Source: Saprospiraceae bacterium
GTDB lineage: Bacteria; Bacteroidota; Bacteroidia; Chitinophagales; Saprospiraceae
Assembly (NCBI GenBank): GCA_029263015.1
Contig: JAJCYI010000021.1
Location: 1 to 45,959 of the forward strand
Direction of reading: 5' to 3'
Length of the DNA stretch: 45,959 nucleotides
Made by a program: the position numbers and the translations under genes. Shown in pieces: positions 8,865 to 15,699 of this stretch (position 1 is its first letter; each line of letters starts with the position of its first letter). Under the pieces are notes generated by a model. It was given only the letters and a program-made list of their open reading frames with translations. It did no database searches and had not been told where the DNA came from.

Positions 8865-9191
8865 ATGAGACCTAAATTTGGCGAATATATTAGAAAATTA
8901 AGAGTTGATAATGAATTGACTCTTACTCAATTAGCAGCAAAGCTTGGAATTGACTCAGCCAATTTGAGCAAAATCGAAACAGGTAAAAGAGATTTCGATG
9001 AAAAGCGAATATCAATACTTGCAGCGGTTTTTAATCTAAATCCAGAAGAACTGAAAGAGGAATTACTTAGTGAGAAAATTGCTCAAAAGTTATATAAATT
9101 AGATTGCTCTGAAAAAGTACTTTACTTGGCTGAACAGAAGGTCAAATATTTACGCCACAAGCATACTGCTCAAGGAAAACTCAAATTGTAA
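8865..9191 (+). CDS. XRE/HTH_3 controller protein of the restriction-modification system
   Basis: The protein has 108 residues. A helix-turn-helix at about 7-60 reads YIRKLRVDNELTLTQLAAKL, then IDSANLSKIETGKR, the classical HTH_3 pattern. The tail (70-108) is basic and probably helical. The gene lies 18 bases upstream of the methylase and directly behind a palindrome that overlaps its own promoter. By analogy with C proteins it would delay or limit nuclease expression, although here C, M and R are all read in one direction, unlike the divergent PvuII arrangement. Confidence 0.85.
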   Translation: MRPKFGEYIRKLRVDNELTLTQLAAKLGIDSANLSKIETGKRDFDEKRISILAAVFNLNPEELKEELLSEKIAQKLYKLDCSEKVLYLAEQKVKYLRHKHTAQGKLKL

Positions 9192-9209
9192 AAAAATAAA
9201 GAAATAAAT

Positions 9210-10154
9210 ATGTACGATTTTAAATTCAAAGAAAAACCATACTATCAGTCAAAAATAGGTGGAGCGTATCTTGGTGACAGTTTAGAATTAATGAAAAAGA
9301 TTCCTGAAAATTCAATTGATTTAATATTAACCTCCCCTCCTTTTGCTTTAACTCGAAAGAAGGAATATGGAAATGAACAAGAAGAAAAATATATTGAATG
9401 GTTTCTCCAATTTAGTAAAGAATTTTATAGGATTCTTAAAGATGAAGGTTCGCTTGTAATTGATTTAGGTGGTGCTTATCTCCCTGGATTTCCAGTTCGT
9501 AGTATTTATCAATATGAGTTACTTGTTAAATTGTGCAGAGAACAAAATTTCTTTCTTGCACAAGAATTTTTTCATTACAATCCATCAAGATTACCCACAC
9601 CTGCGGAATGGGTAACGATTAGAAGAATAAGGGTTAAAGATTCCGTCAATGTGGTTTGGTGGCTATCAAAAACTCCAAACCCAAATGCAAGCAATAGAAA
9701 GGTATTGAGACCATATAGCAAGAGCATGAAGAATCTAATTAAAAATGGATATAAAGCTAAGATGCGTCCAAGTGGGCATGATATTTCAAAAAAATTCGGC
9801 ACTGATAATGGAGGTTCAATACCACCAAATCTTTTGGAATTAGCTAACACCAATTCAAACGGACAATACCAAAGGAGGTGTAGAGAAAATGGAATGAAAC
9901 CTCATCCTGCAAGATTTCCAAAAGGCTTTGCCGAATTCTTTATTAAATTTTTGAGCGAAGAAGATGAAATTGTTTTAGACCCATTCGCAGGTTCAAATAC
10001 AACTGGTTTCGTAGCTGAAGAATTAAACCGAAAATGGATTTCTTTTGAATTAAACCAAAGCTACTTAGACGGAAGTCTTTATAGATTTGAAGATGAACAA
10101 AGTCTTTTTCCCTCAAATATTAAAGTACATGGCATCAAGACATCGAAAATATGA
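9210..10154 (+). CDS. N4-cytosine DNA methyltransferase, PvuII/SmaI-like
   Basis: The protein has 314 residues. It transfers a methyl group from SAM to DNA to protect host sites. Motif IV is TSPPF (41-45), typical of N4-cytosine enzymes, and it precedes the SAM-binding motif I DPFAGSNTTG (257-266), which gives the beta-class order. Long segments recall M.PvuII: FALTRKKEYGN, DLGGAYLPGFPVRSIY, RIRVKDSVNVVWWLSKT, RPSGHDISKKFGTDNGGSIPPNLL, KPHPARFP. The PvuII resemblance is from recall; the recognition site is therefore not proven to be CAGCTG. The last 26 bases overlap the nuclease gene, which suggests translational coupling. Confidence 0.92.
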   Translation: MYDFKFKEKPYYQSKIGGAYLGDSLELMKKIPENSIDLILTSPPFALTRKKEYGNEQEEKYIEWFLQFSKEFYRILKDEGSLVIDLGGAYLPGFPVRSIYQYELLVKLCREQNFFLAQEFFHYNPSRLPTPAEWVTIRRIRVKDSVNVVWWLSKTPNPNASNRKVLRPYSKSMKNLIKNGYKAKMRPSGHDISKKFGTDNGGSIPPNLLELANTNSNGQYQRRCRENGMKPHPARFPKGFAEFFIKFLSEEDEIVLDPFAGSNTTGFVAEELNRKWISFELNQSYLDGSLYRFEDEQSLFPSNIKVHGIKTSKI

Positions 10155-11127
10155 TTTACTTGACTTGCTTTTGCAAGCAATAAACGATGACGGTTGGAGT
10201 ACGCTGTATCTTTCAGACCCAAAATCCCATCCGTTTCATCTCAAAATATATAATGAATCCGAAAGCTATAATCTCAGGATTTACATTTGGAATCTAACTC
10301 ATGGAGGAGGTCGAGCAAGACCTGCCGATGAATATAGAGTTCAAATTACTGGTGTAAATCAATTTGAACAGTTAGAAAATGAAAAGACTCTAATCCTTGG
10401 TTGGTGGCGGGAAGGAGGCGTTTTTGCTGGATTTGATTACAATAAGCATACTGGTATTTTGGGGAGGTCACCTTCTATTCAAATCAGAGAGGAGGCATTA
10501 AGAAAAGCTAATACTTTAGGTATTTCAGCCATAACAAAAGAGAATGAAGAAATAGCGACTGCTTTTCGCCCTGATTTTATTGTAGAATATATACAAAATT
10601 TAGAGTCACTTCATTCGTTTGGAGAATCCGCAAGTGATTTAGCAGTTTTAGAAGAAGTAACAACAGACCCAAATGCTGTAAATGATGCACAGATTTCTTC
10701 CGTTAGTCAAGAAAGACAAACAACTGTTACCAATGTAAGAAAGAAAATAAGGGACAATAGTTTTAAATCGAGAATTCTAACCTCTTACAACAGTAGATGT
10801 GCATTTTGCAGCGTACAATTAAAACTGATTGATGCTGCCCATATAGTTCCAGTCCAGCACAATGGAACTGATGAAACGAGCAATGGAATTGCTTTATGCG
10901 CTTTACATCATAGAGCATTTGACAGAAACCTTATCACCTTCAATGAAGAATATCAAATTATTTACAGCGAGAAAAATTTTGGTAAATTAAGAAAAATTGG
11001 ATTAGACGGAGGTGCTGATGAATTTATTGGAGACCTGAGAGCAGTAATAAACCTTCCCCCTGCAATCGATGATAGACCTCATGTCGAATATGTGAAATTT
11101 GCAAACGAAATCCGAGGTTGGAATTAA
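10129..11127 (+). CDS. HNH restriction endonuclease
   Basis: The protein has 332 residues from the ATG at 10129; another in-frame ATG at 10087 would add 14 residues. The N-terminal half (about 1-160) has no motif I can name, but is likely to bind DNA (HGGGRARPADEYRVQITG). The C-terminal HNH domain shows CAFC (224-227), AAHIVP with His238, NGIALCALHHRAFD with Asn252 and His260/His261, fitting HNH_2-type nucleases with a beta-beta-alpha metal fold. Overlap with the methylase gene makes it the cognate nuclease. PvuII itself is a PD-(D/E)xK enzyme, so the methylase here has a different partner type. Confidence 0.82.
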   Translation: MASRHRKYDLLDLLLQAINDDGWSTLYLSDPKSHPFHLKIYNESESYNLRIYIWNLTHGGGRARPADEYRVQITGVNQFEQLENEKTLILGWWREGGVFAGFDYNKHTGILGRSPSIQIREEALRKANTLGISAITKENEEIATAFRPDFIVEYIQNLESLHSFGESASDLAVLEEVTTDPNAVNDAQISSVSQERQTTVTNVRKKIRDNSFKSRILTSYNSRCAFCSVQLKLIDAAHIVPVQHNGTDETSNGIALCALHHRAFDRNLITFNEEYQIIYSEKNFGKLRKIGLDGGADEFIGDLRAVINLPPAIDDRPHVEYVKFANEIRGWN

Positions 11128-13385: not shown

Positions 13386-13461
13386 TTTTTTTAATTAGTG
13401 ATTTGTTGATGATTTTTTCTACAACTACAAATAAAAAGTATTGTGCCCATGGTCTAGCCCC

Positions 13462-13634
13462 AGGGCTGTTAAGTTCTCGTTTTAAAATTTAAAATTTAAA
13501 ATGATGAATTTAAAATGTAAAAATGGCCTGCACGTAAAATACTCGCCATCAGGTAGGTACGTGTGTCTGATTTTTACATTTATTATTTATCATTTTACAT
13601 TTTACATTAAAACCCTTAGCACTTAACAGCCCTG
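13462..13634. mobile_element. MITE-like element with TIRs and flanking direct repeats
   Basis: The ends are inverted repeats of AGGGCTGTTAAGT (13462-13474, with ACTTAACAGCCCT at 13621-13633). With two more bases of complementarity on each side, the perfect match is 15 bp. An 11-base direct repeat GGTCTAGCCCC flanks it (13451-13461 and 13635-13645), as a target duplication would. Subterminal sequence is AT-rich with repeated AATTTAAAATG/CATTTTACATT, so the whole element could fold into one long hairpin. No coding capacity is present. It fits a non-autonomous MITE. Confidence 0.6.
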
Positions 13635-13708
13635 GGTCTAGCCCCTATAAATCAGACAAAATTACAGACGGTTATTAAAGTGGTTAATTGCTGTAGTATC
13701 TTTACAAA

Positions 13709-13831
13709 ATGAAAAAAGACTTGGATAAACTCGATAAAAGGGAATTAATGAAAATGATCCTTGAGTTGTGCAAAAGAAAAAAGTCGGTCAGGGAAGAAGT
13801 GATGTGGGAATTGGGATATGAGGTAGAATAA
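13709..13831 (+). CDS. Small charged protein, 40 residues
   Basis: The frame ATG 13709 to TAA 13831 encodes a 40-residue lysine/glutamate-rich peptide, MKKDLDKLDKRELMKMILEL, then CKRKKSVREEVMWELGYEVE. A -7-like box TATCTTTA (13697-13704) sits just before the ATG, a spacing common in Bacteroidota genes with very short leaders. The predicted helix is strongly amphipathic. I know no family. It could be an antitoxin-like or regulatory peptide, or a chance frame. Confidence 0.35.
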   Translation: MKKDLDKLDKRELMKMILELCKRKKSVREEVMWELGYEVE

Positions 13832-14017
13832 TCAGATACGTCTAAAAACCACCGAATTTATGAACCCCTTTGATTTCTTTCCACAATTGAATACTTTAGG
13901 GGATTAAATTAAAGGTTCGAACAAAATAAGTGCTCATCCTTTCTAATTTTCAGCAGTACTTTATAACTAGATAACCCCCTCAAACCATCCTTTCCAATCA
14001 GTAATCAGTGAACAACG

Positions 14018-14689
14018 ATGAAAAGAATATTCCTTTCCTATCATTTTGACGACGAAATAAAACCGCTGGCCATGAATTTGGAGCGGCTCATCAAAAGCCA
14101 CGACCTGGAGGTGGTGGATGGGCAGCGATTGGCAGGACAGCCATTGTCACCAGCAGTTCAGGGCTTGATCGAAACTTGTGACGCCATGGTTATTTTATTG
14201 ACCACCAGGGAACAGGGCAAAAGCAATGATTGGGTCAAACATGAACGGACCACTGCTTATAATTTGAAAATACCGTTCATCGCGGTGGTGGAGCAAGGGG
14301 TGCAGGATAATGGCCCTTTTGATGCGTTTGAATACATCAATTACGATTCTGAAAACTTCCTCGAACCAGTCCTCAAAATTTCGGAATCCATTAATAAATG
14401 GAAACTCGATATTGGTGAAGTGGTCGAAGCCTACCTTGAACCAGATATTATAGTCAATGCGGTGCGGGATAATATCGATAGGAATGAAATTGTCCGATTT
14501 CGGTTTTTTGATCAAAGGAATCAATGGGGCGAGTGGAAAAAGCCTGTCATAAAGCCCGCTGCTGGCGGGGTCAGCCTTTACCTCGACGGGATCAAAAAAG
14601 ACTCTGAAATACAAATACAGGTGCGTACAGACAACAATACCTGGAATTCAGATGTCATCAATCAAAACTTAAGAATATCCGTAAAATGA
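14018..14689 (+). CDS. TIR domain protein with C-terminal beta-rich domain
   Basis: The protein has 223 residues. The TIR domain (1-135) begins KRIFLSYHFDDE, with DGQRLAGQPLSPAVQGLIETCDAMVILLT and NDWVKHERTTAYNLKIPFIAVV. Glu76 in WVKHE holds the place of the catalytic glutamate of NAD-cleaving TIRs. The C-terminal part (about 150-223) is beta-rich (VRFRFFDQRNQWGEW, GGVSLYLDGI, EIQIQVRTDN) and could be an Ig-like or YEATS-like sensor; this is inference. Its stop overlaps the next start (ATGA), so the pYEATS-TIR protein is translated with it. Likely role: stress- or phage-triggered NAD depletion or signalling. Confidence 0.82.
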   Translation: MKRIFLSYHFDDEIKPLAMNLERLIKSHDLEVVDGQRLAGQPLSPAVQGLIETCDAMVILLTTREQGKSNDWVKHERTTAYNLKIPFIAVVEQGVQDNGPFDAFEYINYDSENFLEPVLKISESINKWKLDIGEVVEAYLEPDIIVNAVRDNIDRNEIVRFRFFDQRNQWGEWKKPVIKPAAGGVSLYLDGIKKDSEIQIQVRTDNNTWNSDVINQNLRISVK

Positions 14690-15396
14690 GAAATTCAAAT
14701 CTATATACCGTTGCTCAAACGTCTTCCTTGCGGCCCTCTTCCAAAAAGAATTATTTTGATTGGGAAATATGGTTGGAAGATGGTGACAAACCAATCTCAG
14801 AAATTGACTCTGTAGAGTACCTATTGCACTCTACTTTTATTAACAGGTTGCGGACTATTAAAGACCCAAGCACAAAATTCAAACTTAAGTTAAGTGGTTG
14901 GGGGGAATTCATGATCCAGGTATTGGTTTATGAAAAATCCGGTGAGGTGGTTCATCTAAACCACTGGCTCAAGTTGGGGGACAATTATTCCAACATCGAA
15001 GAAATTCCGGAAGAAAAGGAAACGCCGAAAAAAATATTTTTATCCTATTCCAGTTCCGATGCTAAATTTGCGAAGGCCGTTGAGTCAACATTAATTGAAT
15101 TAGGCATAGACGTAAAAACTTCTTCTGATATTCCTACCGAAATGTCGATCAGTGAATACATTGATGATTCTATATCCTCTTCTGATGCGGTCGTTGCCAT
15201 TGAATCGGATTATAAAGACCATTGGCAGGAGAAAGAATTGGAGATTGCAAAAAATGCAGAAAAGCAGACAATTTCTATTAGTACTGAAACCAAATCGGCT
15301 GCTAGTAAAATGGAAGGGAAGTTTGCTTCATCTACCATGAATGCTTCAACTGACCCTGATATTATATCGTTGGCGCAAAGCATTTTGAAGTTGTGA
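14686..15396 (+). CDS. pYEATS-TIR fusion protein
   Basis: The protein has 236 residues. The N-terminal domain (about 23-97) matches prokaryotic YEATS: FDWEIWLEDGDKPISEIDSV, EYLLHSTF, KFKLKLSGWGEFMIQVLVY, HWLKLGDN. After a short acidic linker, a TIR domain runs from 116 (KKIFLSYSSSDAKFAKAVES) through SISEYIDDSISSSDAVVAIES to HWQEKELEIAKN. Glu184 stands four residues after Trp180, the expected catalytic position. YEATS domains in eukaryotes read acylated lysines; in prokaryotes they are proposed sensors in conflict systems. It overlaps the upstream TIR gene by 4 bases. Family roles are known; this pairing as a working system is inferred. Confidence 0.85.
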   Translation: MRNSNLYTVAQTSSLRPSSKKNYFDWEIWLEDGDKPISEIDSVEYLLHSTFINRLRTIKDPSTKFKLKLSGWGEFMIQVLVYEKSGEVVHLNHWLKLGDNYSNIEEIPEEKETPKKIFLSYSSSDAKFAKAVESTLIELGIDVKTSSDIPTEMSISEYIDDSISSSDAVVAIESDYKDHWQEKELEIAKNAEKQTISISTETKSAASKMEGKFASSTMNASTDPDIISLAQSILKL

Positions 15397-15409
15397 AAAT
15401 GAACAAAGA

Positions 15410-15600
15410 GCAAAGGTGACACCTTCTGGAAAAGTGTCACCTTTGCTGTAAAGCGAATCACCAGATTCGCCCTCTGATACGTCTGTTTAAGGGCGAATCT
15501 GGGGATTAGCTTTACAATCATCGTATTTAAGTTGTTGAGCAAGGTGTCGGACGCCCTTCGAGGCGTCGGACACCAAGGCCAAGAACTGGCGTCCGACACC
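15410..15600. repeat. Cluster of three palindromic elements
   Basis: The 303-base gap after the TIR operon holds three separate hairpins. The first, GCAAAGGTGACAC with its complement (15410-15422, 15434-15446), may terminate the operon. The second is nested: TGTAAAGC with GCTTTACA (15447-15454, 15509-15516) around GATTCGCCCT with AGGGCGAATC (15464-15473, 15490-15499). The third is GGTGTCGGACGCC with GGCGTCCGACACC (15543-15555, 15588-15600), with a near copy in direct orientation between them at 15562-15574. Confidence 0.7.
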
Positions 15601-15699
15601 TGAACTATTAATTTTAGGTGCGTGCATTATTATTTGCATAGCACCTAACTTAATTTTTGTCTGATTTACCATCATAAAAATTTAACAATATCTCATTTA

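Follow-up and report, generated by a model that had tools for sequence, protein, structure and literature searches.

A TIR-X and pYEATS-TIR gene pair of Saprospiraceae as a candidate two-gene conflict module

Prokaryotic YEATS domains are reportedly parts of conflict systems, as treated by Burroughs and Aravind (J Bacteriol 2020), and gene pairs related to the one described here may already appear there. In the eukaryotic YEATS reader Taf14, the acyl-lysine is sandwiched between F62 and W81; it forms hydrogen bonds with T61 and W81 and a water-mediated one with G82 (PMC6212594, available text). The question whether bacteria employ acyl-lysine readers such as YEATS domains is posed in the accessible part of a 2021 review (PMC8556138). 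Two described systems are relevant to the pairing of proteins. In staphylococcal Thoeris, a capsid protein binds ThsB1, and ThsB2 is then recruited and activated (PMC12578639, accessible part). In EAD-coupled systems, the available portion of PMC7159879 gives the principle that one EAD copy is carried by a core component and another by the effector.

The window analyzed in this study (the whole stretch of DNA, 45,959 nt) contains two TIR genes with a 4-base ATGA overlap, as the first-pass annotation had proposed from the sequence alone; the open reading frames and Pfam analysis confirmed this arrangement. The features of the pair are as follows.

14018..14689, + strand: gene 1, TIR-X protein, 223 aa (ORF, Pfam, relatives)
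14018..14416, + strand: gene 1 TIR domain, about residues 1-133 (Pfam residues 4-110, AF2, Foldseek)
14243..14245, + strand: Glu76, candidate catalytic residue, SNDW-VKH-E motif (sequence)
14480..14686, + strand: X domain, residues 155-223, beta-rich, unnamed (leave-out profiles)
14686..14689, + strand: ATGA overlap of gene 1 and gene 2 (sequence)
14686..15396, + strand: gene 2, pYEATS-TIR protein, 236 aa (ORF, Pfam, relative)
14755..14970, + strand: pYEATS domain, gene 2 residues 24-95, with T50, F51, W72 and G73 (Pfam PF20305, Taf14 alignment, Foldseek)
15034..15393, + strand: gene 2 TIR domain, from residue 117 (Pfam TIR_2, residues 117-195)
15235..15237, + strand: Glu184, candidate catalytic residue, HWQEKE (sequence)

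TIR, pYEATS and EAD11 are already known. Literature searches on pYEATS, on prokaryotic YEATS with TIR and on Thoeris with YEATS found no paper within a coverage that leaves out most subscription papers. In agreement with the annotation, no described system with this two-gene plan was found in the literature searched, and no paper on an X/pYEATS pairing; given the incomplete coverage, this is not proof of novelty.

Searching with protein 1 across 100 relatives revealed matches in two of them, namely the own genome (at two places) and Saprospirales bacterium GYS_P2D (32% identity, contig WUUP01000003.1). The next gene in GYS_P2D encodes a pYEATS-TIR protein of 227 aa with 35% identity to protein 2; the two genes overlap by 11 bases, and the pYEATS domain scores 79.5 bits (PF20305). 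Conserved co-occurrence, on the absence of which the annotation had agreed to be rejected, was found: the pair is intact in this second genus. Among 398 family genomes, a sample from a larger group, protein 1 matched in 8 and protein 2 in 44, and matches over the full length including X, or over both domains, occurred solely in the own genome and GYS_P2D. The other six of eight genomes (protein 1 matches ending before X) and 42 of 44 (single-domain protein 2 matches) were left out of the pair counts. The full TIR plan is rare (2 of the 398 sampled family genomes), yet it is kept together across two genera. Recurrence of this plan in a second genus, with identities of 32% and 35%, makes the pair more than a chance arrangement.

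The own genome also carries a paralogue, a TIR-TIR-X gene on contig C96 (9100-10176 of locus L014, + strand; 358 aa, 24% identity to protein 1). Its first TIR has the Glu, its second has Asp instead, and no pYEATS gene adjoins it. Since the own genome has one pYEATS match in total, the C96 protein might, as a speculation, work in trans with the pYEATS-TIR protein of gene 2. Gene 1 had no match among plasmids; gene 2 had one, from Stanieria, covering pYEATS only, and no relative in viral contigs (188 pattern stretches). One pattern-limited scan of genome contigs with gene 1 returned GYS_P2D and, over residues 1-114 only, a TIR protein from Elusimicrobia.

Comparison with TIR NADases indicated a TIR fold in both proteins. 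Pfam placed TIR_2 at residues 117-195 of protein 2 (E 5.9e-11, above the cut-off) and at residues 4-110 of protein 1 (E 8.6e-6), the latter at 26.7 bits, a little short of the 28-bit cut-off. The spacing that the annotation had noted, a Glu four residues past a Trp, holds in both proteins (Trp72 to Glu76, Trp180 to Glu184), and these residues correspond to the conserved Glu of TIR NADases. In the GYS_P2D pair Glu is likewise present in both proteins, and Trp is present in protein 1 and absent from protein 2. AlphaFold models were built from two-sequence alignments. The model of protein 1 has a mean pLDDT of 69.7, with block means of 63-90 across residues 1-130 and about 50-60 in X; that of protein 2 has a mean of 72.1, with residues 202-219 below 50. 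The beta-rich C-terminal domain that had been claimed for protein 1 reappeared in its model as four predicted strands from residue 159, at a pLDDT of only about 50-60. Foldseek matches listed for protein 1 included SARM1 (5.5e-5), ThsB (5.7e-4), SPARTA TIR and DNPH1; the top row was an NAD kinase (rmsd 17.7), GTPases and flavodoxin-like folds were also listed, and query-normalised TM-scores were modest, at most 0.44 among the 50 matches listed. The predicted model and its Foldseek matches support a TIR-like fold and do not prove an NAD pocket. Protein 1 had no match among PDB sequences at E up to 1; profile matches in PDB, at E 0.37 or worse, were unrelated and were dismissed.

The same results bear on whether the TIRs are NAD-cleaving enzymes at all. 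They could be assembly or adaptor domains of a signalling or scaffold complex, immune or not, and the sub-cut-off score of the gene 1 TIR, the poorly predicted end of the gene 2 TIR and the loss of Trp in one relative and of Glu in another would all suit such a role. We consider it rather unlikely, as the two full pairs retain Glu in each of their four TIR domains at an overall identity of just 32-35%.

Scans against defence-system profiles, which the annotation had proposed, returned TIR_2 and pYEATS, at most weak ThsB matches, and no STING, SAVED or cyclase Pfam domain in the pair or in the eight neighbours scanned. No NCBIfam family was found for either protein at E up to 0.01, and no PADLOC family, ThsB included, for protein 1 at E up to 1. 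The PADLOC matches of protein 2 were spbK (1.6e-7), SAVED_TIR (3.9e-4) and ThsB (0.0091); they cover residues 99-191, mainly TIR, and the SAVED_TIR match is to the TIR region only.

The surroundings of the pair were compared between the two genomes. Nine bases downstream of the GYS_P2D pair a convergent gene run begins (locus L013 10971-19498, - strand), encoding LRR-Roc-TIR (1088 aa), patatin (564 aa), TIR (205 aa) and CHAT-TPR-S (572 aa) proteins, with a nucleoside-deoxyribosyltransferase-like gene, just under the cut-off, between the last two. The immune role proposed in the annotation is supported in that this copy adjoins a cluster of conflict-type genes. In the window, the pair lies between a PLOD-type glycosyltransferase gene upstream and an OmpA protein gene downstream. 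About 3-5 kb upstream (8865-11127, + strand) are a control-type HTH gene, an N6/N4 DNA methylase gene and an MTaX1-HNH gene, likely a type II restriction-modification set. A 40-aa ORF, MKKDLDKLDKRELMK..., lies at 13709-13831 (+ strand) between gene 1 and the first of the following context features.

13451..13644, no strand: MITE-like element, context and probably outside the module (27-nt terminal inverted repeats, 89% complementary)
15409-15447, 15447-15516 and 15542-15601, no strand: three hairpin-forming palindromes, context (resemble dispersed genomic repeats)

Both kinds of repeat flank the pair, as the annotation had stated. Their use as a sign of mobile defence is weakened because both are dispersed genomic repeats; the MITE-like family has at least 10 other genomic copies with at least 150 aligned bases and at least 81% identity (40 of 78 candidates scored). 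A mobile defence island was consequently dropped, both repeat types being scattered through the genome. A Bacteroidota-type promoter pattern was absent from 13601-14030; the whole stretch had 5 occurrences against 4.0 expected.

Like Thoeris with ThsB1 and ThsB2, as given in the available text of PMC12578639, the gene pair consists of two co-encoded TIR proteins and has a TIR followed by a beta-rich C-terminus. It differs in that its second protein is pYEATS-TIR, in that no ThsA-type gene occurs among the named neighbours of the pair in the own locus or GYS_P2D, and in that its ThsB profile matches are weak (in the GYS_P2D proteins, 8.5e-4 for protein 1 and 0.0016). It is possible, if on balance unlikely, that the two TIR proteins form the sensor or synthase half of Thoeris-like signalling, making cyclic ADP-ribose on which a separate receptor, for example TPR-S, executes. 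According to Burroughs and Aravind 2020, TPR-S is said to read NAD-derived signals. The convergent cluster adjoining the GYS_P2D pair includes the CHAT-TPR-S gene, and the own genome has one TPR-S match, in a protein of contig C242 that resembles an alpha/beta hydrolase by eye; this gene is, against such a partnership, on a different contig from the pair. The weak ThsB matches of GYS_P2D protein 1, the co-operation of two TIR proteins in ThsB1/ThsB2 (PMC12578639, in part) and the C-terminal beta sheet that ThsB also has past its TIR (PMC10022894, in part) agree with Thoeris-like signalling, whereas a ThsA-type gene adjoins the pair in neither genome and the X profile found no PDB sequence below E 0.15. 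A search for STALD/SLOG receptors matched in none of four genomes, and the control genomes likewise gave nothing.

Analysis of the X domain revealed that it occurs in other company. No Pfam, NCBIfam or PADLOC family was found for X at the thresholds applied. Two further genomes of this family, G602 and G797, each have a stand-alone pYEATS gene (105 aa in G602, 101 aa in G797) immediately preceded by a gene whose product consists of EAD11, a linker and a C-terminal X-like domain; the two genes overlap by 4 bases in G602 and are separated by 10 bases in G797. The EAD11 match is above the cut-off in G797 (E 1.1e-9) and below it in the G602 EAD-X protein (5.7e-5); the G797 protein also has a weak PADLOC JetC match (0.0012) outside X. 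Leave-out X profiles were scanned over 3203 segments. The profile of the three TIR-X sequences recovered the held-out G797 at E 4.2e-5 and G602 at just E 4. With G602 added, G797 was matched at 5.7e-10; with G797 added, G602 was matched at 1.3e-4, and in the same run the long frame L040 (genome G887) at 1.8e-4, a comparison to be read with the enrichment of L040-type frames among the segments, since L040 had entered through a weak X match. The reverse profile (G602 and G797) matched the C96 copy at 7.1e-4, gene 1 at 0.022 and GYS_P2D at 0.54. At the level of sequence, the X link of the G797 EAD11-X protein is firm; that of G602 is marginal by sequence alone and owes its support to resemblance to G797 and to its position before pYEATS. 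Gly-Gly, Ile and Ser are invariant in the five X sequences.

Further X searches added no locus. Among 395 class genomes, the X profile gave 11 matches at E up to 0.05, strong in the own genome only, with the other ten at 0.0025-0.046; matches in 2 of 198 order genomes, 1 of 21 genomes of the G797 genus and 1 of 3 of the G602 genus were all loci already known. pYEATS was found in 9 of 395 phylum genomes. In 23 pYEATS neighbourhoods, including twelve from the family search and eight from the phylum search, X stands directly upstream of pYEATS in four (own locus, GYS_P2D, G602, G797), a count obtained with a profile built from the five X sequences, which these four loci match by construction, and 19 are without X. 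Conversely, four of the five X loci known here directly precede pYEATS (three with overlapping genes, by 4, 11 and 4 bases, and one across a 10-base gap). Since two genomes have an X-like domain joined to EAD11 before stand-alone pYEATS, X is not restricted to TIR proteins; the core is therefore better read as X and pYEATS, and it looks as if TIR or EAD11 is an exchangeable part.

The G602 run additionally contains EAD11-CHAT and amidohydrolase genes. The EAD11 domains of its EAD-X and EAD-CHAT proteins are identical at 17 of 81 positions (none of 300 shuffles equally good), and such a resemblance is expected from the EAD principle (PMC7159879, available portion); between EAD11 of G602 EAD-CHAT and that of G797 there was no resemblance (169 of 300 shuffles equally good). 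EAD11-X and EAD11-CHAT in one run fit the core/effector pattern of EAD-coupled systems, and the accessible parts of PMC7159879 and PMC8195603 do not mention an X and pYEATS core. The gene pair itself is without EAD by Pfam scan, EAD11 being found in its G602 and G797 relatives.

These relatives also bear on a toxin-antitoxin-like arrangement, in which the TIR activity of one protein would be restrained by the other. Two small overlapping genes are what such a pair would look like; given that both proteins have a TIR with Glu, that stand-alone pYEATS partners EAD11-X, which has no toxin domain, and that the C96 TIR-TIR-X gene stands without an adjoining partner, we regard this arrangement as very improbable.

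The pYEATS domain claimed for the second protein is well matched: residues 24-95 belong to PF20305 at E 1e-20 and 73.8 bits against a cut-off of 26.9, and the 50 Foldseek matches listed for protein 2 are YEATS chains (E from 1.6e-5). Among the loci examined, the pYEATS-TIR fusion was found in the two full pairs only; at the others pYEATS is stand-alone, membrane-linked or part of a long multidomain protein. One of these is a 2527-aa protein (L065 517-8100, + strand) with four EAD11 stretches, a caspase, a sub-cut-off iSTAND match and a C-terminal pYEATS. In three genomes of one genus (L066, L067, L069), 134-aa pYEATS genes overlap a long-protein gene (1685-1687 aa in the complete copies). Another genome, from the gene pair's own genus, has an EAD11-SH3 gene (L070 4865-6507, - strand) that shares 4 bases with a membrane-linked pYEATS gene, whose product is without the Trp.

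Alignment with Taf14 (HMMER, 2l7e; numbered by hand) placed T50, F51, W72 and G73 of gene 2 at Taf14 T61, F62, W81 and G82, so that by alignment gene 2 has an allowed residue at every YEATS contact position (Thr/Ser, Phe, Trp/Tyr, Gly/Ala). These four contact residues are common to Taf14 and gene 2, which differs in being bacterial and TIR-fused. Judged by eye, all four X-linked rows have these same four letters, as do 6 of the 17 remaining pYEATS rows, which means that the pocket is not a feature of X-linked pYEATS alone; Trp is absent from 7 of the 17 non-X rows, three membrane-linked ones included. Support in the pYEATS tree was too weak to group the X-linked members. The Taf14-like pocket suggested by this alignment does not reveal the ligand. 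An acylation-reading immune sensor, in which pYEATS would bind acyl-lysine on an infection-altered phage or host protein and so license NAD cleavage by TIR or EAD-recruited proteolysis, is a tentative and in our view unlikely proposal; if true, bacteria would have an acyl-lysine reader coupled to a cell-suicide effector.

Our main reading, to which we give a probability of about 0.5, is a two-gene conflict module in which X and pYEATS form the sensing core and the two TIRs, probably NAD-cleaving once brought together, form the effector. For the gene pair we infer NAD cleavage, defence, a ligand and the X-pYEATS contact. Sensing would rest on X and pYEATS binding one another or one common ligand. 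Where EAD11 is present, this core would recruit a separate EAD11-tagged effector, for example the CHAT protease, through EAD-EAD contact. In the gene pair the effector would be built in, the TIRs replacing EAD, with the second TIR copy on pYEATS; as the TIRs stand in the place of EAD and the second copy sits on pYEATS, a core-bound trigger could unite them. A trigger bound by pYEATS, X or both would thus join the two TIRs into an active NAD-cleaving assembly, and NAD depletion or an ADP-ribose signal would then stop the infected cell. ThsB1/ThsB2 provide a tested precedent for two co-operating TIR proteins (PMC12578639, accessible part). Also in favour of the module are the conservation of the pair across genera, the position of X directly before pYEATS in four neighbourhoods, the leave-out recovery of G797, the EAD11 and CHAT assignments, the conflict-type cluster in GYS_P2D and the Glu in both TIRs. 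The low model confidence of X, the C96 gene without pYEATS and the 19 of 23 neighbourhoods without X count against this module, as do the dependence of the G602 case on gene order, the poor recovery of gene 1 and GYS_P2D by the reverse profile, the gene 2 TIR, which looks reduced, the modest TM-scores of protein 1, its lack of a PADLOC family and the restriction of the PADLOC matches of protein 2 to its TIR region. From the NAD-targeting immune module proposed in the annotation, the TIR-type domains with Glu at the NADase position and the kept pair stand; the C-terminal domain proved not to be TIR-specific, and the repeat argument lost weight.

The gene pair resembles the effector side of a small immune-type module with two recurring parts, X and a YEATS relative. 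With its Taf14 contact residues, the gene 2 pYEATS domain lends itself directly to testing the reader question posed in the accessible part of the review (PMC8556138), and the TIR in the same protein offers a measurable output for it. Overall, our analysis suggests a small core of X and pYEATS that accepts different attached parts, either TIR or EAD11 linked to CHAT, so that NAD loss and proteolysis may be alternative outputs of one sensing unit.
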